Source: an uncultured Bacteroidota bacterium (GTDB lineage Bacteria > Bacteroidota > Bacteroidia > Flavobacteriales > BACL11). From it: a stretch of 49,513 nucleotides of DNA. A model generated the notes under the pieces. That model saw nothing but the letters and a program-made list of their open reading frames with translations. It did no database searches and was not told the origin of the DNA. The stretch is from the NCBI GenBank assembly GCA_902533655.1, contig CACAMX010000004.1, positions 1 to 49,513 of the forward strand, read 5' to 3'. Made by a program: the position numbers and the translations under genes. Below are positions 13,896 through 25,137 of the stretch, one piece after another; the stretch's first letter is position 1, and every line of letters begins with the position of its first letter.

Positions 13896-16769
13896 ATGAA
13901 GTTCTCAGACAGACATATCGGACCTTCTTTAAATGAACAAAGAAAAATGCTCAACGAAATTGGACTGAGTAGCATACAAGAGCTTATTGATCAGACACTT
14001 CCAAGTCAAATTAGGCTTAATAAAAAAATTGACTTACCGGAACAATTAAGTGAGAGCAGATTTATAGAACATTTATATCATATCGGTAAAAAAAATAAAA
14101 ACTACAGATCATATATTGGGCTAGGATATTACAATACTATACTTCCTGGAGTAATTCAAAGAAACATTCTTGAAAATCCTGGATGGTATACTGCATATAC
14201 ACCTTATCAAGCTGAAATTGCTCAGGGTAGGTTAGAAGCATTGTTAAATTATCAAACTATGATATGTGATTTAACTGCTATGGACTTAGCTAATGCATCT
14301 CTATTAGATGAAGCAACAGCCGCTTCAGAGGCAATGCTTATGCTTTATAACTCTAGAGATAGGTTTAAAAAGAAATCAAATTGTAATAAGTTTTTTGTTT
14401 CATCTGACTGTTTTCCACAAACGATTTCTTTATTGGAAACAAGATCAGAACCTTTAGGAATTGAACTTGTCATTTCTTCAATTAAGGAAGTTGAAATTAA
14501 TGAAAGCTTTTTTGGATCAATTTTACAGTATCCTAATTCAAACGGTGCAGTTATAGACAATAAACAGTTTGTTTCTGATCTAAAAAAGTTTAATATTGGA
14601 TTAGTAGTTGCAGCTGATTTGTTGTCTTTAACATTATTGAATCCCCCCGGAGAATGGGGAGCTGATGTGGTTGTTGGAACAACACAAAGGTTTGGTATTC
14701 CACTTGGGTATGGAGGGCCTCATGCTGCTTACTTTGCTACAAAAGAATCCTACAAAAGAAATATTCCTGGAAGAATTATTGGTATATCACAAGATGTTGA
14801 TGAAAATAAAGCACTAAGAATGGCTTTACAAACTAGAGAACAACATATTAAGAGAGAGAGAGCAACATCAAATATTTGTACTGCTCAAGTTTTACTTGCA
14901 GTAATGGCAGGAATGTATTCTGTTTATCATGGTTCTAGTGGACTCAAATCAATTAGTAATAAAATCCACAGGTTAACTCTTATGCTTTCTGAGGGCCTTA
15001 AACAGTTAGGATACCTTCAAAAAAATAATGTTTTTTTTGATACTTTACATATCAATGTCGGAAATATATCAATTGATAATATTAGAACGTACGCTGAAGT
15101 AGCTAAAATCAATTTTAATTATATTGATGATAAAAATTTAACAATATCAATTGATGAAAAAGATGATGAGAAAAACATTGCAGATATATTAGATGTATTT
15201 GCAAAAAGCTGCAAACATTCTGATTCTCAAAACCTAATTAATGAATTGCCTAATGTAAGAACAAGAAACGGATCAATTTATGACAGTGTTTTTGAAAGAA
15301 AAAGTGAATTTTTAACGCACCATGTTTTCAATAGTTATCATTCTGAAACAGCTCTAATGAGGTATATTAAAAGTCTTGAGAATAAAGACTTAAGTTTAAC
15401 TAAATCAATGATTCCTTTAGGTTCATGTACAATGAAGCTCAATTCTGCTACTGAGCTTTTTGCGTTAAGCTGGCCATCATTTAGTAATTTACATCCATTT
15501 GCTCCATTAAACCAAACTAGAGGTTATAGTATTATGTTTCATGAGTTAGAGGAGATGCTTTGTGAAATTACCGGTTTTGACGCGATAAGTTTGCAGCCTA
15601 ATTCTGGTGCACAAGGGGAGTATGCTGGTTTAATGGTTATTAGGCAATATCATAAAAGTAATGGGGACAGCAATCGTAATATTTGTCTTATTCCTTCATC
15701 CGCCCATGGAACTAATCCTGCATCTGCTGTAATGGCTGGCATGAAAGTTGTAGTTATTAAATGTGATGAAAAGGGTAATATTGATTTTGAAGATTTAAAA
15801 GAAAAGGCAGAAGAGCATTCTCATAACTTAGCAGCTTTGATGATTACTTATCCATCAACACATGGAGTCTTTGAAGAAAAAATCATTGAAATTAACAATA
15901 CAATTCATGAAAACGGAGGACAGGTTTATATGGATGGAGCAAATATGAACGCACAGGTTGGATTAACTAACCCTGCTATAATTGGCGCAGATGTTTGTCA
16001 TTTAAATTTACACAAAACTTTTGCTATTCCTCACGGAGGAGGGGGTCCAGGCATGGGGCCTATAGGAGTAAAAAAACATCTGAAAAATTTTTTACCAACA
16101 AATCCTATTATTAAAGTTGGAGGAAAAAAACCGATTAAAGCCATTTCTGCTGCACCTTGGGGCAGTGCTTCAATTTTGACAATTTCATATGCTTACATAA
16201 AAATGTTAGGGGAGGAAGGTTTGAGGCAGTCAACAGAAATAGCAATTTTAAATGCTAACTATATTAAGAAAAAATTAGAAAGTTCATATAACATTTTATA
16301 TTTAGGAGAAAAAAATAGAGTTGGTCACGAGATGATAATTGATTGTAGACCATTCAAGGCTTTAAACATTGAAGTTTCTGACATAGCAAAAAGGTTAATG
16401 GATTACGGCTTTCATGCTCCAACTGTCTCATTTCCTGTCCCTGGTACAATGATGATAGAGCCAACTGAAAGTGAAAATTTAGAAGAAATTAACAGATTTT
16501 GTGAAGCAATGATTGGAATTAAAAATGAAATTAATGAAATAGCTGAGGGTATTGCCGATAAAGTTGATAATGTAATTAAGAACTCTCCTCATACCATCAA
16601 TATGCTTATGTCAGAGAAATGGAATCACTCTTACTCAAGAGAGAAAGCTGCATTTCCATTGCATTGGGTTAGAAAAGACAAGTTTTGGCCATCAGTTGCA
16701 CGAATTAAAGAAAGTTATGGAGATAGAAATTTAATATGCTCATGCGTTCCAATTGAAGAGTATAATTAA
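13896..16769 (+). CDS. gcvP: Glycine dehydrogenase (decarboxylating), P protein
   Basis: [66 protein letters not shown]; 957 aa. Confidence 0.97.
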
Positions 16770-16821: not shown

Positions 16822-18639
16822 ATGAAAAAACTTTTACTGATTACTTTTCCAATCCTATCGACTCTTTTTTGCTATGCGCAAATTGTAAATTATGATGATA
16901 TGAGAATTGAGAAAAAAAACTTTTTTAGTGTTCAGCCCACATCAACAAATAGTGCTAGCTCAGCAGCACCTGCACCACCTTTTTGGGCTAATACATTTTC
17001 TAATCCCTCAGAATGGACTATGGTAGATTTGATTTATGGTGGCCTACAAAACTGGGTCATCTCAACTACTGGTCCAGTTGGTTCTTTTTCAGCTGCACTT
17101 GGTTCGATTTCATCTACAAGTGCAAGCGACGGATTTGCTATGTTTGATTCTGATGCATTAAACTCTTCTTATTCTCCACAAGAAGCATATATACAATACA
17201 ATGGAACAGTTGATTGCTCGTCTTATCCATTTGTCAACATAGAGTTTGAATCATATCACAGAAAATTTAGAGACTCAATTTTTGTTGAGGTTAGTGTTGA
17301 CGGTATAACATGGGATAGGTATGAGGTTCACGCAGGACAAGCTACAAATACAGCCACTGCTAATCCAGAATTCGTTTCAATAAATGTGTCTGCGACCGCA
17401 GGAAATCAACCAGCAGTTTACTTTAGATTTAAATATGAAGGAGAATGGGATTATGCGTGGATGATAGATGATGTGTCATTTGCTGAAACCCCAAACAACT
17501 ATGCTACAATTGCTGATGAAGTTTTTGGTGGTTGGTGGATTGGCTACAATAGTACAGGAGGTATTGGTTGTGATTACACTTTCAATCCCATAAGTCAGCT
17601 AGCTGCTAATCCTTACAAAATTGAAGCAGTAATTAGAAATGCTGGCATTGCACCTCAAAACATGACTTTACATGCTGAGGCATTTGACCAAATTACAAAT
17701 TCTGTATATTCATCGACATCTAATTCTCAATATCTATCAACTTCTCAGCAAGATACATTTGCAGTCAATAACACATTTAACCCAACTGTTCTTGGATTAT
17801 ATGAATTAAGAATTTGGGGTGTTGGTGATTCAGCCAACACTGATACTACTACAAAACAAACAGTAGTAACACAGTATTCATACGGAAAAGATTTAAATAA
17901 CTATCAGGGTAGTTATGTTTTAGGTAATGCAACAAGAGAAAATCATGTAACATCATTTTTTGATATATATGCTAATGAAAATCTTTATTCTGTTGATTTA
18001 TACATTGCACCTTGGTCAATTCCAGGTACCAAGATTTATGGTGTACTTTACGAGGCTGACCCGACACCTAGTGCTGATCCTATCTATCTCGATCAAACTG
18101 ACGATCATACAATAACAAGTTCAGATTTAGATAGTTGGATTACTTTGAGTTTTGCCAACCCAATATCACTCATTGCTGGTGTCGGCTATGAGCTGGGAGC
18201 TGCTGGATATCAACATCCTTCAGATTCAGCCGGAATTGGATATTCAGGCCTAGCTCTTGGCACAGAAAATTCATTATTTGATGCAAATGGAGGTAGCCCT
18301 AATTCAGCAGGAATAGCAACATGGTATTATATTACTCAGAATCCTATGATAAGAATGAATTTTGATCCTACATCATCTGGAAGTACAAGTTCTAAAAACT
18401 TAATAAAATCAGATCTCAATATATTTCCTAATCCAGCAAATAATGTAATCACTATTTCTAAACTTGACAATTTTGATTTCTTACAAATAAAGGATTTACT
18501 TGGCAAGGTAGTCTATGAAGAAAGCATTTCAAAGGTTAATAATACCACTATTGATATTAAAGGCTTTTCAACTGGAACATATTTAGTGAACTTTGAAGGT
18601 TCATCTAATAGTTTTACTAGAAAAATAATAATTGAATAA
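16822..18639 (+). CDS. T9SS-secreted multidomain protein, paralog 1
   Basis: Signal peptide; PPFWANTFSNPSEW; WMIDDVSFAETPNN; C-terminal LNIFPNPANNVITI...GTYLVNFEGSSNSFTRKIIIE type A sorting domain. Confidence 0.85.
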   Translation: MKKLLLITFPILSTLFCYAQIVNYDDMRIEKKNFFSVQPTSTNSASSAAPAPPFWANTFSNPSEWTMVDLIYGGLQNWVISTTGPVGSFSAALGSISSTSASDGFAMFDSDALNSSYSPQEAYIQYNGTVDCSSYPFVNIEFESYHRKFRDSIFVEVSVDGITWDRYEVHAGQATNTATANPEFVSINVSATAGNQPAVYFRFKYEGEWDYAWMIDDVSFAETPNNYATIADEVFGGWWIGYNSTGGIGCDYTFNPISQLAANPYKIEAVIRNAGIAPQNMTLHAEAFDQITNSVYSSTSNSQYLSTSQQDTFAVNNTFNPTVLGLYELRIWGVGDSANTDTTTKQTVVTQYSYGKDLNNYQGSYVLGNATRENHVTSFFDIYANENLYSVDLYIAPWSIPGTKIYGVLYEADPTPSADPIYLDQTDDHTITSSDLDSWITLSFANPISLIAGVGYELGAAGYQHPSDSAGIGYSGLALGTENSLFDANGGSPNSAGIATWYYITQNPMIRMNFDPTSSGSTSSKNLIKSDLNIFPNPANNVITISKLDNFDFLQIKDLLGKVVYEESISKVNNTTIDIKGFSTGTYLVNFEGSSNSFTRKIIIE

Positions 18640-18662
18640 ATAGAATATTCACCAATTTAATA

Positions 18663-18688
18663 AGCAGAGTTAAAGTTCTGCTTTTTTT
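18663..18688 (+). terminator. Intrinsic terminator AGCAGA-8 nt-TCTGCT followed by T run
   Basis: Perfect 6-bp stem directly followed by a T tract, after the paralog 1 stop. Confidence 0.7.
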
Positions 18689-18690
18689 CA

Positions 18691-20232
18691 ATGAAAATAC
18701 TGGCTTTTATATTTCTGTTTTCAAATGCGATTGTGTGCTTCTCTCAAATTCAGACTGTAGGTTTGTTCCAATATGATTCAAGTGCAGTAAATGGCTATAC
18801 TCTTTTTTCTGCCGATAAAAAAACATATTTGATAGATAATTGTGGTTACTTGATAAACGAGTGGCAGAGTAATTTTGGCGCAGGAAACTCGGCATATTTA
18901 CTTGAAAATGGAGATTTATTAAGAACATGTAGAATACAAAATAGTATTTTTAGTGGTGGAGGAAGTGGAGGTAGAGTTGAGCTCAGGGATTGGTACAATA
19001 ACTTGAAATGGAGTTATAATTTCTCAAATATTTATTATCATCAGCATCATGACATTGAACCGTTAGCTAACGGTAACATTTTAATTCTATGCTGGAAAAG
19101 ATATTCATATGCTGATGCTATTCTTTCTGGAAGAAATCCTAATTCTTTAATTGATAATGAGTTATGGGCTACTTATATCATTGAAGTGGAGCCTATTGGA
19201 ACTGATTCTATGAAAATTATTTGGGAGTGGAATTTATGGGATCACCTGATTCAAGACTTCGATTCTACAAAAAATAATTTTGGAGTAATTGAAAACCATC
19301 CAGAGTTATTAAATATAAATTATTACAATGGTAATGGAAAAAAGGATTGGATGCACTGTAATTCAATAGATTATAATGAGTCTCTTCAGCAAATAGTAAT
19401 AGGATCTCGTTCTATGTCAGAGTTTTATATTATAGACCACAGCACGACAAGTATGCAAGCATCATCTAGCGCGGGTGGCATCTATGGAAAAGGTGGTGAT
19501 TTTTTATATAGATGGGGTAATCCACAAGTTTACAATAAAGGAAACTCATCAAATAGAAGATTATTTGGTCAGCATGATGTACAATGGATTAAAGACGGAT
19601 TAGTTGACGAAAAAAAGATATTAATCTTTAACAATGGACAGTCAAGAGGATACAGTAGTGTAGAAATTGTTAATACTCAATTTCAAAATTTAGGTAATTA
19701 TCAACTAAGCCAGTTGGGAACATTCATTCCAGATTCATCTGAATGGATATACATTTCTGATAACCCAACAAATTTTTTTTCTTCTTATATCTCTGGAGCA
19801 CAGAGACTTAAAAATGGTAATACTTTAATTTGTGATGGTGCTCATGGAACCTTTTTTGAGATTGATAAAGATAAGAACCAAGTTTGGAAATATGTAAATC
19901 CGGTAATTAATAACCGCGTTCTTGATCAAGGAGACACTATTCCTTACTCAAACAATGGATGGGCTAATAATGTTTTTAGAGCTGAAAGGTATTATCCTGA
20001 CTATTCAGCATTTTATGCAAAAAATTTGAACTCATCTACACCAATTGAAGGTTACCCCTTCTCATATTATTGTACAATGTCAACATATGTTAACAACATT
20101 AACAAGCTTTCCAACAAAAATATTTTATCAATTTTTGATGTTTTAGGTAGAAGATCTGATTTAAACACTAACAAATTGCTATTTTTATATTATTCAGATG
20201 GAAGAGTTGAAAAGAGGTTTATATTAAAGTAG
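18691..20232 (+). CDS. Arylsulfotransferase (ASST)-like secreted protein with degenerate T9SS C-terminal domain
   Basis: Signal peptide; YYHQHHDIEPLANGNILIL, DWMHCNSIDYNESLQQIVIGSRSMSEFYIID, FGQHDVQWIKDG, QRLKNGNTLICDGAHGTFFEI; C-terminus LSIFDVLGRRSDLNTNKLLFLYYSDGRVEKRFILK. Confidence 0.8.
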   Translation: MKILAFIFLFSNAIVCFSQIQTVGLFQYDSSAVNGYTLFSADKKTYLIDNCGYLINEWQSNFGAGNSAYLLENGDLLRTCRIQNSIFSGGGSGGRVELRDWYNNLKWSYNFSNIYYHQHHDIEPLANGNILILCWKRYSYADAILSGRNPNSLIDNELWATYIIEVEPIGTDSMKIIWEWNLWDHLIQDFDSTKNNFGVIENHPELLNINYYNGNGKKDWMHCNSIDYNESLQQIVIGSRSMSEFYIIDHSTTSMQASSSAGGIYGKGGDFLYRWGNPQVYNKGNSSNRRLFGQHDVQWIKDGLVDEKKILIFNNGQSRGYSSVEIVNTQFQNLGNYQLSQLGTFIPDSSEWIYISDNPTNFFSSYISGAQRLKNGNTLICDGAHGTFFEIDKDKNQVWKYVNPVINNRVLDQGDTIPYSNNGWANNVFRAERYYPDYSAFYAKNLNSSTPIEGYPFSYYCTMSTYVNNINKLSNKNILSIFDVLGRRSDLNTNKLLFLYYSDGRVEKRFILK

Positions 20233-20238
20233 TTTTTT

Positions 20239-20246
20239 TATATTTG
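20239..20246 (+). promoter_or_regulatory. -7 promoter element TATATTTG upstream of T9SS paralog 2
   Basis: Exact TAnnTTTG, 26 nt before ATG 20273. Confidence 0.5.
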
Positions 20247-20272
20247 TTATGTTTAATGTATTTTAATACCAA

Positions 20273-22138
20273 ATGAGAAATTTTTTATTAATTGTCTTTA
20301 CTTTTACTTCCTTTTTATTTGCAAATTCTCAGGTTCTAAATTCTCAATTTGTAACTACTAACAAAGAAAATGATTTGGTTAAATCATTCTCAAAATATCA
20401 GAGACAACTACCACCTTTTTGGAACTCTGACTTTTCAAATCCATCTGATTGGGTGCTTAACAATAGTGGTCAAGCTTCTCCAAATGGATGGTCTATAGGA
20501 AACGTTGTAAATAGTTGGTATAATGGCTTAAGCTCAGGAATACAATCAACATCTGGTGGAAATTTTGCCGAGTTATATAATGGCGACCCTACTCAAAACA
20601 CTCAAATGTTGAATGTAACTTATACAATGACATTAGCAAATCCAATTGATATTTTATCTTTAGTTGGTACAGATGAAGTTACCTTATCTTGGGAGGAAAC
20701 AGGAGCTAGATTTAATGACCTACAAGAAGTTCAAGTTAGCACGGATGGAGTAAACTTTGTCACAATTGCAGATAATTTATCATACAGTGTTTTATCACAA
20801 TCTGGAGGTTCTATGTATTCTAATCCTGAAATCAGAACAGTAAATATTCAACCCTATATTTCTTCTAACTCATCAAACGTTTGGATCAGATATTCATGGA
20901 CTACCAATTTTCCTACATCCTCAGCAAATCCAAATGTTTGGATCACATACGGCTGGTTAATTGATGATGTTTCTTTAAGTGTAACACCTGATTATCTTAT
21001 GAATTCGGTTGACGCCAACCATGGAGGTTGGGAAGTTGGTTATGCTAACACTACTGGCTTCGGAATGGATTACACGATTAAACCATTGACTCAATCTGCA
21101 GCTAATCCTTACATGTTCGAGCTATCACTTTCTAATTTAGGTGCAAAAAATTTAAGCGGTAGTAAAATGAATGTTTCAGTAAACAACAGTATTGGAATGC
21201 CGATTTTTTCAAGTTCTAGTGACACTACAACCATCTCAGTTCTTGATACAGTTACTTTTTTAGCTAATCAAAATTTTGATCCAGGTGCAGTCGGTGTCTA
21301 TGACATGTTTTTTTGGGGTACAAGTAGTAACGCAAACAGTGATACTATAACCATGCAAGCTGTTATTTCAGACTCTGTTTACGCAAGAGATTATGGTACA
21401 CCTGATGGTAGTTGGCGTGTTGGCAGAAGTTGCGGGGGATTACAATTATTAAATGTTTTTGACATATATGACAATGAACAAATCAGTTCAGCATCTGCTC
21501 ATATTGCAGATTACTCTATACCTGGAACAGAAGTTTTTGCAATTTTATATGAAGTTGATACCACTCAAAGTCCATGGGCATTTATACAACTATCTCAGAC
21601 AGACGACTACACTGTACAATCTCAAGATATCAACAATTGGATAAATCTTCCATTCAAGCCTGCGTATTCTGTTTTTACCGGAACACATGCAATTGCAATA
21701 GGTAGTTATCAACATCCTACAGATACATTTGGAATTAGTACCTCAGGAGAGGCAGAAGTTTTAATGTCTAGGATACAAGATAATGGATGCAACCTTGGCT
21801 CTCAAGCCTTTGGTTATTGGTATTGGATTAATAATACTCCAATGATAAGAATTAATTTTGGTTCTACTTGGCCTCAATCTGATGAACTAAAATCTCAAAA
21901 CACCTTAAAATTATATCCTAACCCAGTTGAGAATATTTTGAATATTCAGGCTCCCAGCTCTAACAAGAATAGTTATGTTTTAGAACTATTTGATATAGCA
22001 GGTAAACTTGTATTAGAGAAAAGAATTGATAATGATCAGTTCAATAATGTACATGTAGGACACTTAGAAAAAGGTAATTATATGATTGCCATCACAAGTG
22101 AAATTTATTCAACTAAAACTAAAATTACAATTAAATAA
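20273..22138 (+). CDS. T9SS-secreted multidomain protein, paralog 2
   Basis: Signal peptide; PPFWNSDFSNPSDW; WLIDDVSLSVTPD; LKLYPNPVENILNIQAP sorting domain. Confidence 0.85.
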   Translation: MRNFLLIVFTFTSFLFANSQVLNSQFVTTNKENDLVKSFSKYQRQLPPFWNSDFSNPSDWVLNNSGQASPNGWSIGNVVNSWYNGLSSGIQSTSGGNFAELYNGDPTQNTQMLNVTYTMTLANPIDILSLVGTDEVTLSWEETGARFNDLQEVQVSTDGVNFVTIADNLSYSVLSQSGGSMYSNPEIRTVNIQPYISSNSSNVWIRYSWTTNFPTSSANPNVWITYGWLIDDVSLSVTPDYLMNSVDANHGGWEVGYANTTGFGMDYTIKPLTQSAANPYMFELSLSNLGAKNLSGSKMNVSVNNSIGMPIFSSSSDTTTISVLDTVTFLANQNFDPGAVGVYDMFFWGTSSNANSDTITMQAVISDSVYARDYGTPDGSWRVGRSCGGLQLLNVFDIYDNEQISSASAHIADYSIPGTEVFAILYEVDTTQSPWAFIQLSQTDDYTVQSQDINNWINLPFKPAYSVFTGTHAIAIGSYQHPTDTFGISTSGEAEVLMSRIQDNGCNLGSQAFGYWYWINNTPMIRINFGSTWPQSDELKSQNTLKLYPNPVENILNIQAPSSNKNSYVLELFDIAGKLVLEKRIDNDQFNNVHVGHLEKGNYMIAITSEIYSTKTKITIK

Positions 22139-22147
22139 CAACCAAAT

Positions 22148-24031
22148 ATGAAAAATCTTTTATTCTTAATTTCAATTATATATTCAATTTTTGTTTTTTC
22201 TCAAGAAGAAAAAAATAAATTATGTCCAAATGACAATGTTGCTGAAATCTTAAATTCAAAATATATACAAAACAATCATAATAGCCTAAACCAAAGCTTT
22301 ATACCTACTGTTATTTGGTCTGAAGATTTTTCCTCAGGATTCCCCTCAGGATGGTCAAGTTCCAGTACTAACACAGTTGGCGGAATTGCTACTGCTCCGT
22401 GGGTGTGGAGTAATGATGGGTCGTGGGGATATTGGAATAGCAATCAAGGAAGTTCAGCAGCAGCTGGAATTAGCTCAACAACAGCATCAAATGGATTTTT
22501 AATTTCTGATCCAGATTCAGCTAACCATACCGCATACGGTCAGCCTTCAGGTACAACTTATCAATATATTAATTCACAATTTACAACTTCTGCAATTAAC
22601 ACTTTAGGATTTCCTGCTGTAACATTAGAATTTGAACAGCTTTTTAGATTTAATAATAATTTGAATTTGGTAGTTTCGGTCAGCAATGATAGTATTTCAT
22701 GGACTGATTATTTCGTTCAAGGAAGCATAACTAACAATACTCAATCTCCAAATCCTGAAACCGTTAGTTTAAATATTTCTACAGTTGCTGGAAATCAAAC
22801 TAAGGTATATGTAAAGATTAGCTGGGAAGCAAGGGTATATTATTGGATGATCGATGATATGAGAATAATAGAAACACCAAATAATTTAGTTACAATGAGT
22901 AATGAAGTTACTGGTGGATGGTGGAAAGCTTATCAACTTTCTGGTGGAATCGGATGTGATTATACTTTTAATCCACTTTCACAAGTTTCATCCAATCCTT
23001 ATAGTATAGAGGCTGTTTTAACTAATAATGGCTCTGCACCACAAAACATGACACTTCATGCTGAAGTGACTGATGCAATTGGAAATGTAGTTCATTCTTC
23101 TACATCAAATCCAACATATTTATCTACCTCTCAACAAGATACCTTTATGATTAACCAACCATTCAGACCCACAACGATTGGTCTTTATAATATATCAATG
23201 TGGGGAGTTGGAGATTCTGCCTATACTGATACAACATTTAGAGAAACAGTTGTTACGAACTATATTTATGGTAAAGATTTAAATGATTATCAAGGTTGGT
23301 ATGATATTGCTACTGCAACAAGACAAAATCATATCACATCATATATGGATATTTACTCACCCATTGAATTGACAGCAGTCGATGTTTATATAGCTGATTG
23401 GTCTGTTCCTGGAGCAGAGGTCTATGGAATACTTTATGAAAACGATCCATCTTCCACTACTCCAATTTATATTACTCAGACAGATGATTATACAATAATG
23501 CCATCTGACAGAGATAATTGGGTAACCATTAACTTTGACCCACCAGTTTCACTTTTTTCTGGAACTGGTTATGAAATCGGTATAGGTGGTTATCAACACC
23601 CTTCTGATTCAGTTGGTGTAGGGTACTCTGGAATAGCTTTAGGTACTGAAAATTCTCTTTATGATGAAATTGGGACATCCCCAAATTCTAATGGTTCTCC
23701 TACGTGGTATTATATCACAAGAAATCCAATGATTAGAATGAATTTCGAACCTCCTGCAGTGAATAATGTTATTGACAATAATCAAGAAAAATCATTCAGA
23801 ATTTATCCTAATCCCTCAGATGGGAAGTTGTTCATAGTTAATTCTAATGAATTTTCATCTAATGATATTATTAGTATAGTTAATGTTTTGGGTAAAAATG
23901 TATACAAAACTAACTTTTCTAATTTAGCTAAAACTAACTCTATTGATTTATCGTTTCTTGAGTCTGGATCATATCTTATCTATTATGAATCAGATGATTA
24001 CAAAATAACTAAAAGTTTGATTATAGAGTAA
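22148..24031 (+). CDS. T9SS-secreted multidomain protein, paralog 3
   Basis: Signal peptide; VIWSEDFSSGFPSGW; WMIDDMRIIETPNN; FRIYPNPSDGKLFIV sorting domain; middle strongly similar to paralog 1. Confidence 0.85.
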   Translation: MKNLLFLISIIYSIFVFSQEEKNKLCPNDNVAEILNSKYIQNNHNSLNQSFIPTVIWSEDFSSGFPSGWSSSSTNTVGGIATAPWVWSNDGSWGYWNSNQGSSAAAGISSTTASNGFLISDPDSANHTAYGQPSGTTYQYINSQFTTSAINTLGFPAVTLEFEQLFRFNNNLNLVVSVSNDSISWTDYFVQGSITNNTQSPNPETVSLNISTVAGNQTKVYVKISWEARVYYWMIDDMRIIETPNNLVTMSNEVTGGWWKAYQLSGGIGCDYTFNPLSQVSSNPYSIEAVLTNNGSAPQNMTLHAEVTDAIGNVVHSSTSNPTYLSTSQQDTFMINQPFRPTTIGLYNISMWGVGDSAYTDTTFRETVVTNYIYGKDLNDYQGWYDIATATRQNHITSYMDIYSPIELTAVDVYIADWSVPGAEVYGILYENDPSSTTPIYITQTDDYTIMPSDRDNWVTINFDPPVSLFSGTGYEIGIGGYQHPSDSVGVGYSGIALGTENSLYDEIGTSPNSNGSPTWYYITRNPMIRMNFEPPAVNNVIDNNQEKSFRIYPNPSDGKLFIVNSNEFSSNDIISIVNVLGKNVYKTNFSNLAKTNSIDLSFLESGSYLIYYESDDYKITKSLIIE

Positions 24032-24035
24032 TAAG

Positions 24036-24125
24036 TTGAAAGCATTAGTATTACTTTCTGGTTACAGATTTTTCGATGGCTCGAAAGCTCATGAATCAGC
24101 AGCAATATTTATTTATCTAAAATAA
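24036..24125 (+). pseudogene. N-terminal remnant of ElbB/ES1-family (glyoxalase III-like) gene
   Basis: TTG-start reading gives MKALVLLSGYRFFDGSKAHESAAIFIYLK*, resembling the ElbB N-terminus (VILSGCGVYDGSEIHEAVLTLLAI, recalled from E. coli ElbB), then stop. Confidence 0.5.
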
Positions 24126-24250: not shown

Positions 24251-24251
24251 G

Positions 24252-24324
24252 TGGTACCTCCAGGAATCGAACCAGGGACACATGGATTTTCAGTCCATTG
24301 CTCTACCAACTGAGCTAAGGTACC
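24252..24324 (-). tRNA. tRNA-Phe(GAA)
   Basis: Reverse complement GGTACCTTAGCTCAGTTGGTAGAGCAATGGACTGAAAATCCATGTGTCCCTGGTTCGATTCCTGGAGGTACCA folds as a cloverleaf with anticodon GAA. Confidence 0.95.
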
Positions 24325-24420
24325 AATGGGATGCAAATTTAATTGTTTTTTTTATTTGAATACAATTTTTTATTATTTCTCGCTTGATAAAATTATATAG
24401 TTAATCTTAATTTGAACAAA

Positions 24421-25137
24421 ATGGATCTAATAGTTGATATTGGAAATACTTTAATAAAAGCCACTTTTTTTGACAATCATAAAATTGTAAAAAAATATTC
24501 ATTTGAAAAATTACAAACTAAAAAGCTTGTAAAGCTTTTTGAAAATAAATACATTAAAAAAATTTTTATTTCCAATGTGGGTAATAAAATTGATATAAAT
24601 AAAATTTCTAATTCTAAGCATGTATTACTTTTTAAAGATAATCTTAAAATGCCAATAGAATTAAACTATAAGGATATAAATAAGTTAGGTAAAGATAGAA
24701 TTGGTGCAATGGTTGGTGCAAGAATGTTATACCCAAAACATAATTTACTAGTCGTAGATATCGGCACATGTATAACAATGGATATTTTAACAAAAGATGG
24801 AATCTTTTTAGGAGGAAGAATATCGCCAGGGATTAATTGTAGATATAAAAGTTTATCATCAATTGAGAAACTACCACTTCTTAATTTTGTTTATAGTAAA
24901 GCCATGTATGGAAATGATACAGAATCTTCAATTCACACTGGAATACAAAGATCCATTATTTCTGAAATACGAGATTTTAATTCACATTTGCTAAAACAAT
25001 TCAATAATTTGAACGTTGTTATAACTGGTGGAGATATGAATTTTTTGTTAAAAGAGCTAAAAAACACCATATTTGCAAGCGAAGAAAACCTAGTAGCAAT
25101 AGGTTTGTATGAAATAATGAAATATAATAATGAATAA
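24421..25137 (+). CDS. coaX: Type III pantothenate kinase
   Basis: MDLIVDIGNTLIKATF, DRIGAMVGA, VVDIGTCITMDIL, GGRISPGI, VITGGD; ATG 24421 preferred over TTG 24412. Confidence 0.92.
   Translation: MDLIVDIGNTLIKATFFDNHKIVKKYSFEKLQTKKLVKLFENKYIKKIFISNVGNKIDINKISNSKHVLLFKDNLKMPIELNYKDINKLGKDRIGAMVGARMLYPKHNLLVVDIGTCITMDILTKDGIFLGGRISPGINCRYKSLSSIEKLPLLNFVYSKAMYGNDTESSIHTGIQRSIISEIRDFNSHLLKQFNNLNVVITGGDMNFLLKELKNTIFASEENLVAIGLYEIMKYNNE

Follow-up and report, generated by a model that had tools for sequence, protein, structure and literature searches.

How do neighbouring copies of a surface protein gene come to share one part of their sequence and differ in another? A 49,513-nucleotide stretch of an uncultured Bacteroidota bacterium of the Flavobacteriales (contig CACAMX010000004.1 of assembly GCA_902533655.1, hereafter the window) raises this question. 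It contains three large paralogous genes in tandem, P1, P2 and P3, with an arylsulfotransferase-like (ASST-like) gene between the first two. An initial annotation made from the sequence alone had proposed that the three proteins are exported by the type IX secretion system (T9SS) and are mosaics. We compared their heads and bodies with those from 43 genomes of the window's GTDB family. The account that we consider probable is that the genes belong to an old, syntenic array of two to four T9SS surface proteins displaying different binding heads on a common body, shaped by conversion of the bodies and occasional replacement of a head.

Architecture of the array proteins

The four open reading frames lie where the initial annotation had placed them, all on the + strand, and each paralog carries the type A sorting domain claimed for it. 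Por_Secre_tail (PF18962/TIGR04183) reaches the C-terminus of P1, P2 and P3 with scores above the curated Pfam and NCBIfam cut-offs. On the basis of these C-terminal domains (CTDs), we infer that the three proteins are T9SS type A substrates that are secreted and displayed at the cell surface. The parts of the locus are as follows.

16822-18639, + strand: P1, 605 amino acids, predicted T9SS type A secreted protein with a type B head (open reading frame; Por_Secre_tail, 1.4e-14; head typing)
16975-17490, + strand: P1 head, variable N-terminal jelly-roll of type B, about residues 52-223 (P3 AlphaFold2 boundaries mapped by alignment; head tree)
17491-18375, + strand: P1 body, immunoglobulin (Ig)-like module and third jelly-roll module (third module, 17875-18375)
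18421-18636, + strand: P1 type A CTD (Por_Secre_tail match)
18691-20232, + strand: ASST-like gene (PF05935), predicted secreted enzyme (Pfam match; residue alignment with E. coli AssT)
20104-20229, + strand: short CTD-like tail of the ASST-like protein, D.LGR...LF.IY.DG.VEK (motif comparison)
20273-22138, + strand: P2, 621 amino acids, predicted T9SS type A secreted protein with a type D head (open reading frame; Por_Secre_tail, 1.4e-12; head typing)
20290-20976, + strand: putative replaced tract of P2, the head (drop in DNA identity to three sister species; AU test)
20990-21871, + strand: P2 body, Ig-like module and third module (third module, 21374-21871)
21911-22135, + strand: P2 type A CTD (Por_Secre_tail match)
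22148-24031, + strand: P3, 627 amino acids, predicted T9SS type A secreted protein with a type A head (open reading frame; Por_Secre_tail, 2.6e-13; head typing)
22301-22876, + strand: P3 head, type A, residues 52-243 (AlphaFold2 model; head tree)
22877-23758, + strand: P3 body, Ig-like module to 23260 and third jelly-roll module at 23261-23758 (predicted structures)
23801-24028, + strand: P3 type A CTD (Por_Secre_tail match)

Read by eye, the N-termini of P1-P3 are hydrophobic to about residue 19-20, before a Q, and residues 2-21 of P3 form a helix in its AlphaFold2 model. Genes for SprA and a C25 peptidase (PorU-type) are present in all four other genomes of the window's genus (G001-G004); neither was found in the window's own genome assembly, which is 55% complete.

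Apart from the CTDs and an FxLYD match barely over its cut-off in the Ig-like region of P3, no part of P1-P3 received a Pfam or NCBIfam name. Representatives of all six head types described below gave no usable match in these libraries either. In the AlphaFold2 model of P3 (87 sequences; mean predicted local distance difference test score, pLDDT, 84.9), the jelly-roll head spans about residues 52-243. It is followed by an Ig-like module that ends near residue 372 and by another beta module that ends near 537, and the CTD occupies 552-627. The Foldseek neighbours of this model are family 2 glycosidases, through their beta-sandwich and Ig parts, and the MAM-Ig region of receptor protein tyrosine phosphatase (RPTP) mu; the latter agrees with an earlier MAM-like reading of the N-terminal module. 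The third module, which the initial annotation could not name, is predicted to be a jelly-roll when folded alone (pLDDT 94.6), with fold matches to PHR domains and to phage tail or capsid proteins (template modelling score, TM, about 0.5-0.67). Searches of PDB and viral models returned generic jelly-rolls only, and we dropped the attempt to give it a family name. The module thus has a predicted fold and still no named family.

Heads and bodies have different histories

Similarity among the three paralogs is patchy, as had been proposed, and not uniform along the genes. Identity between P1 and P3 is 37% over the head, rises to 66% and 62% over the Ig-like and third modules and drops to 29% over the CTD, whereas P1-P2 and P2-P3 stay at 22-39% all along. 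The P3 head is 65-69% identical to the heads of last genes in other genera, against the 37% that it shares with P1. The Ig-like and third modules of P3 reach at most 56% and 50% identity to other genera, well short of their values to P1. The description of the P1/P3 middle as nearly identical overstated the case: it is 65% identical in DNA, and its fourfold sites are saturated (27/87 the same).

The trees conflict in the same way. P1 and P3 fall in separate clades of the head tree, each with counterparts from other genomes, and are sisters in the body tree (Shimodaira-Hasegawa-like approximate likelihood ratio test, SH-aLRT, 97). Head data reject the grouping of P1 with P3 (approximately unbiased (AU) test, p 1.2e-68), and body data reject the placement of P3 with other type A genes (AU p 9e-6). 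Per-domain trees had been suggested as the check on mosaicism, and their conflict reveals it throughout the family.

Across the family, heads form six discrete types, A to F. Mean identity is 58-76% within types and 21-34% between them, and the ranges do not overlap (0.44-0.99 within, 0.17-0.42 between). Mean identity of the bodies is barely tied to head type (0.40-0.49 within types, 0.34-0.47 between). By a parsimony count that is descriptive and not a strict probability, head type changes at least 19 times on the body tree, against 5 changes if the two were congruent and about 44 if shuffled. When only branches with SH-aLRT of at least 99 were kept, 13 changes remained, compared with about 34 for shuffled labels. 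The 19 changes lie between the congruent and the shuffled values, so head and body have recombined repeatedly, though by no means at random.

The same pattern can be read from mean identities. Genes of one genome with different heads have bodies at 0.474 and heads at 0.306; genes of other genera with the same head type have bodies at 0.428 and heads at 0.618. We also followed identity along the 23 same-genome pairs whose bodies are most alike. It overtakes that of same-head genes from other genera near residue 249, where head meets body; because the pairs were chosen on body similarity, this crossover places the junction and is no separate test. Homogenisation of bodies is strong in genera g1, g2, g3, g8 and g11 and weak elsewhere.

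P1 and P2 share an N-terminal signature, PPFW..FSNPS.W, to which the initial annotation had drawn attention. The signature is present, but it does not mark a shared exchange. Outside it, no other pair of the three heads is as dissimilar as these two (24%), which are of types B and D, and 4 of 17 B heads and 2 of 8 D heads carry the motif, a minority in each case. We ruled it out as evidence of exchange on these two grounds.

A DNA-level tract that spares the head

Copying at the level of DNA was detected in one related genus. The E and A genes of genomes G020 and G006 have CTDs that are 0.85-0.86 identical in DNA, with 26/29 (G020) and 24/28 (G006) fourfold sites the same. The E/A tract of G020 comprises body, CTD and spacer and leaves out the head; it extends beyond the stop codon, across a hairpin resembling a terminator, and into the spacer that precedes the next gene. 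Since similarity reaches the spacer, protein selection cannot explain the tract, and we interpret it as a DNA-level copy without the head. Together with the conflicting, well-supported trees and the minimum of 19 head-type changes, this tract upholds the original suggestion of domain shuffling or gene conversion.

For the window's own P1 and P3, the saturated fourfold sites rule out a recent conversion and indicate an old exchange. This exchange of bodies is older than the split of the four sampled species.

Probable replacement of the P2 head

A second kind of event is visible between close relatives. DNA identity between the window and three sister species is about 0.87 over most of P1 and the ASST-like gene, with lower values at the ASST tail. 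Over approximately 20290-20976, the P2 head, it drops to 0.36-0.56, and in the P2 body it stands at 0.66-0.82. The P2 head is of type D in the window and of type C in all three sisters. In the two sister rows tested, the P2 bodies group with the window's in one clade, and a single clade of P2 heads is rejected (AU p 1e-6). Because the outgroup genera g2 and g11 carry a type C head in this slot, the type D head was probably acquired in the window's lineage.

Composition and order of the array

In profile and protein searches, almost every genome of the window's GTDB family had members of the array protein family, as did several other Flavobacteriales families. Heads occupy regular positions. 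The common order is gcvP - B/E/F - C/D - A - coaX, and the window has B, D, A; genus g3 departs from it with E-A-D. None of the 39 genomes with at least two typed heads repeats a type, compared with a permutation mean of 14.2 and minimum of 5, which likewise are descriptive figures and not strict probabilities. Repertoires vary within genera: g1 has BCA or BDA, g7 has EC or FC, the first head is E or B in g8 and g12, and the first slot of g10 holds B, E or F.

The arrangement of gcvP followed by the array is kept across the window's family and is seen in families f8 and f9. gcvP lies immediately upstream in 35 of the family's 47 loci; the others are mostly at contig ends or split, and genus g9 differs. 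Downstream genes in many genomes are coaX, an outer-membrane protein gene, a tetratricopeptide repeat (TPR) protein gene, lptC and a SurA/PpiD-like gene. In the window the flanks are as follows.

13896-16769, + strand: gcvP, glycine cleavage P-protein, conserved upstream neighbour of the array
24251-24324, - strand: tRNA-Phe, 3' flank of the array
24412-25137, + strand: coaX-type pantothenate kinase, conserved downstream neighbour in many genomes

A 90-bp segment from 24259, in the tRNA-Phe region, is identical across all four compared species of the window's genus. Between P3 and coaX, positions 24039-24125 hold an apparent remnant of a DJ-1/PfpI-family gene (KALVLLSGYRFFDGSKAHESA...), which is an intact 232-amino-acid open reading frame in three sister species. 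A scan for promoters and terminators gave a signal near chance level.

Some arrays and homologs look different. Arrays of families f8 and f9 (rows L065, L066, L216, L219, L222 and L225) adjoin gcvP in several genomes too, and f9 arrays have two A-like heads flanked by unclassified ones. The first array gene after gcvP in G207 (L206) has a head that fits none of the six types. Off-array open reading frames of 1134-1736 amino acids (G029:C48 (L078), G036:C33, G277:C9 and G296:C13) hold head-plus-body homologs outside the usual three-module size.

The arylsulfotransferase-like gene and its tail

The arylsulfotransferase-like identity of the gene between P1 and P2 was borne out by a PF05935 match of 79.2 bits (cut-off 24.2). 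Residues H222, N224, R240 and H295 align with H356, N358, R374 and H436 of E. coli AssT and are invariant in 8 homologs. In AssT, H436 is the sulfurylated catalytic residue and acts with H356, N358 and R374 (PMC13426309).

The protein had also been given a T9SS-like end. Its tail does look T9SS-like but has no CTD match in Pfam or NCBIfam; it is CTD-like, short and atypical, and not a full type A domain. The last 40-60 residues form a shortened CTD-like motif that also ends a CotH-type protein, a beta-lactamase-fold protein and copper monooxygenase-like proteins, and many further C-termini in the window's family were matched by the ASST profile through its tail part. The motif, D.LGR followed by LFxIYxDGxVEKKxIIE, ends several unrelated secreted proteins (L206, L090, L093, L195, L227 and L072) and resembles the second half of the type A CTD. 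None of the scanned examples has a Pfam or NCBIfam CTD match.

Alternative explanations

The alternative that survives best, although we think it unlikely, is that the heads are the mobile part: head cassettes would be shuffled among fixed gene lineages marked by their bodies, with no conversion of the bodies. The P2 genes of the window and its sisters fit this idea, having the same body under different heads (D and C), as do an F head within the E-body clade (L052) and the B and E heads in one body clade of g11 and g12. Against it, head types hold their array position across 15 genera (B/E/F first, A usually last), bodies from different slots group by genus (P1 with P3 in g1, E with A in g3), and the G020 tract takes in everything but the head. 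Body conversion and head movement are probably both at work.

Somewhat less plausible still is a locus for antigenic variation or phage escape, in which members of one population would change heads, drawing on silent cassettes or on imported sequence. Head type does differ between species of one genus in five genera, and comparable use of adhesin-domain variants is known from Porphyromonas gingivalis (PMC5266723). The locus itself argues against switching: no silent head cassettes were seen in the window's own genome, 55% complete, in which matches beyond the CTD level were to P1-P3 only, and no convincing inverted-repeat switch was found around the array.

The initial annotation had viewed the block as a cassette co-secreted with the ASST-like enzyme, and an extension of that view has the array proteins presenting aromatic or polysaccharide substrates to it for sulfation. 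The linkage is real in part. Of the 14 genomes with an ASST ortholog, 10, from 5 genera, have it within the array or at its edge, and the catalytic residues are conserved. However, the ortholog lies elsewhere in the other four (G030, G011, G027 and G136), and most genomes of the family have an array with no ASST gene in it. Flavobacteriales ASST relatives at about 48% identity have no adjoining array, and many other Bacteroidota relatives have ordinary CTDs and no adjoining array. The named ASST-bearing relatives are uncultured Flavobacteriales or Bacteroidota, many of them marine by name, the closest being labelled AG-913-I23. A dedicated sulfation cassette is thus very improbable; the enzyme is better seen as an optional partner of the array that probably transfers sulfuryl groups from one phenolic compound to another at the cell surface.

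The notion that no recombination took place, and that an old family with one tree throughout merely has slow heads and fast bodies under unequal constraint, is hardly credible: the window's P1/P3 pair alone could look so, given saturated synonymous sites in the body and a CTD that evolves fast in all pairs, but strongly supported conflicting trees with their AU tests, the abrupt loss of DNA similarity confined to the P2 head between sister species, and the near-identical fourfold sites and similar spacer of the G020 tract all speak against it.

A model for the array

We therefore return to an array of different heads on a common body. Each protein would start with a variable jelly-roll head at the N-terminus, continue with a body that joins an Ig-like module to a PHR/lectin-like jelly-roll, and end in the type A sorting signal. 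Gene conversion, by homologous recombination between adjacent copies, would overwrite the bodies, whose similarity allows them to pair; the heads are too different for this. Now and then, recombination in homologous flanks would exchange a head in place. The P1 and P3 bodies of the window would owe their likeness to an old event that preceded the split of the four sampled species, and a later one would have placed a type D head on P2 where relatives carry C, as the three sisters and the outgroup genera suggest. After secretion, the PorU route would attach the proteins to the surface, where the heads may bind different ligands, whether glycans or surface proteins, on prey, particles, hosts or phages. 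Selection would hold the set of heads non-redundant.

Several points weigh against this account or limit its reach. Every head in the f8 arrays is of the same C-like type, so non-redundancy of heads is not a universal rule. Bodies are nearer to paralogs of their own genome than to same-head genes of other genera in 56 of 92 genes taken individually, which makes homogenisation a tendency; in genera such as g12 and g13, the bodies of same-head genes from elsewhere are at least as close. The permutation and parsimony numbers can only describe the pattern because the genomes are related and the head types were defined from the same tree. The window's own P1/P3 exchange is too old to leave a DNA-level signal of conversion. 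The type D head of P2 is known from one 55%-complete assembly, and a chimeric contig is a possible source of it, though the chimera would need an in-frame join of two genes at the domain junction. Secretion and binding by the array proteins are predictions from sequence.

A wider interpretation, which we put forward tentatively and hold to be rather doubtful, is that marine Flavobacteriales keep a combinatorial display system beside gcvP. It would combine non-redundant, swappable heads with a homogenised T9SS-exported body, and head replacement between species would act as a specificity switch, for example in the recognition of particles, prey or phages.

The locus offers an example, from uncultured marine Flavobacteriales with small genomes, of modular surface-protein diversification under a clear rule: different heads, a shared body and a fixed order. 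Available metagenomes allow this rule to be traced. Should the heads prove to bind different targets, the array would amount to a readable code for attachment or recognition by these bacteria. Our comparison also documents DNA-level homogenisation of the bodies of putative T9SS cargo, and flags on many secreted proteins of the group a short C-terminal tail that has no match in the main model libraries.

Comparison with known systems

Literature searches, which covered open-licence papers, returned no published description of the array. The nearest published parallel that we found is the adhesin-domain variation of P. gingivalis surface proteins, which belong to a different family and form no array. 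The adhesin domains of Kgp, RgpA and HagA are a mosaic of domain variants produced by allelic exchange and unrelated to strain phylogeny (PMC5266723). These proteins, with their cleaved adhesin domains and K4 variants, resemble those of the array in being T9SS surface proteins of jelly-roll domains with mosaic variants. The cleaved adhesin Pfam family gave no match at E of 1 or below in the three window proteins and ten relatives, and the head matched Kgp (3m1h) weakly (E 0.17). Unlike the P. gingivalis adhesins, the array proteins have no protease domain, vary at the N-terminus and are encoded by tandem genes at a fixed locus.

Other likenesses are confined to single parts. The ASST-like protein agrees with bacterial AssT/AST enzymes in its PF05935 match and in its equivalents of H356, N358, R374 and H436, but its short T9SS-like tail and its place within an array of surface proteins set it apart from them. 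The head and Ig-like domain are alike in fold to the MAM-Ig region of RPTP mu (2c9a), but sequence identity is just 13% and the two-domain superposition is loose (TM-score 0.35 by target length).

Two further systems are comparable in organisation. Rhs and other polymorphic proteins reportedly join a conserved core to a displaced variable end. Rhs proteins exchange the C-terminal end, whereas the array proteins vary in the N-terminal head, and no toxin or immunity gene was seen with them. The clustered protocadherins of vertebrates are surface proteins encoded in tandem; gene conversion homogenises one part of them, and another part is diverse between copies. The proteins are unrelated, and the array described here has no shared exon, splicing or promoter choice, but both are tandem arrays with one homogenised part and one diverse part.

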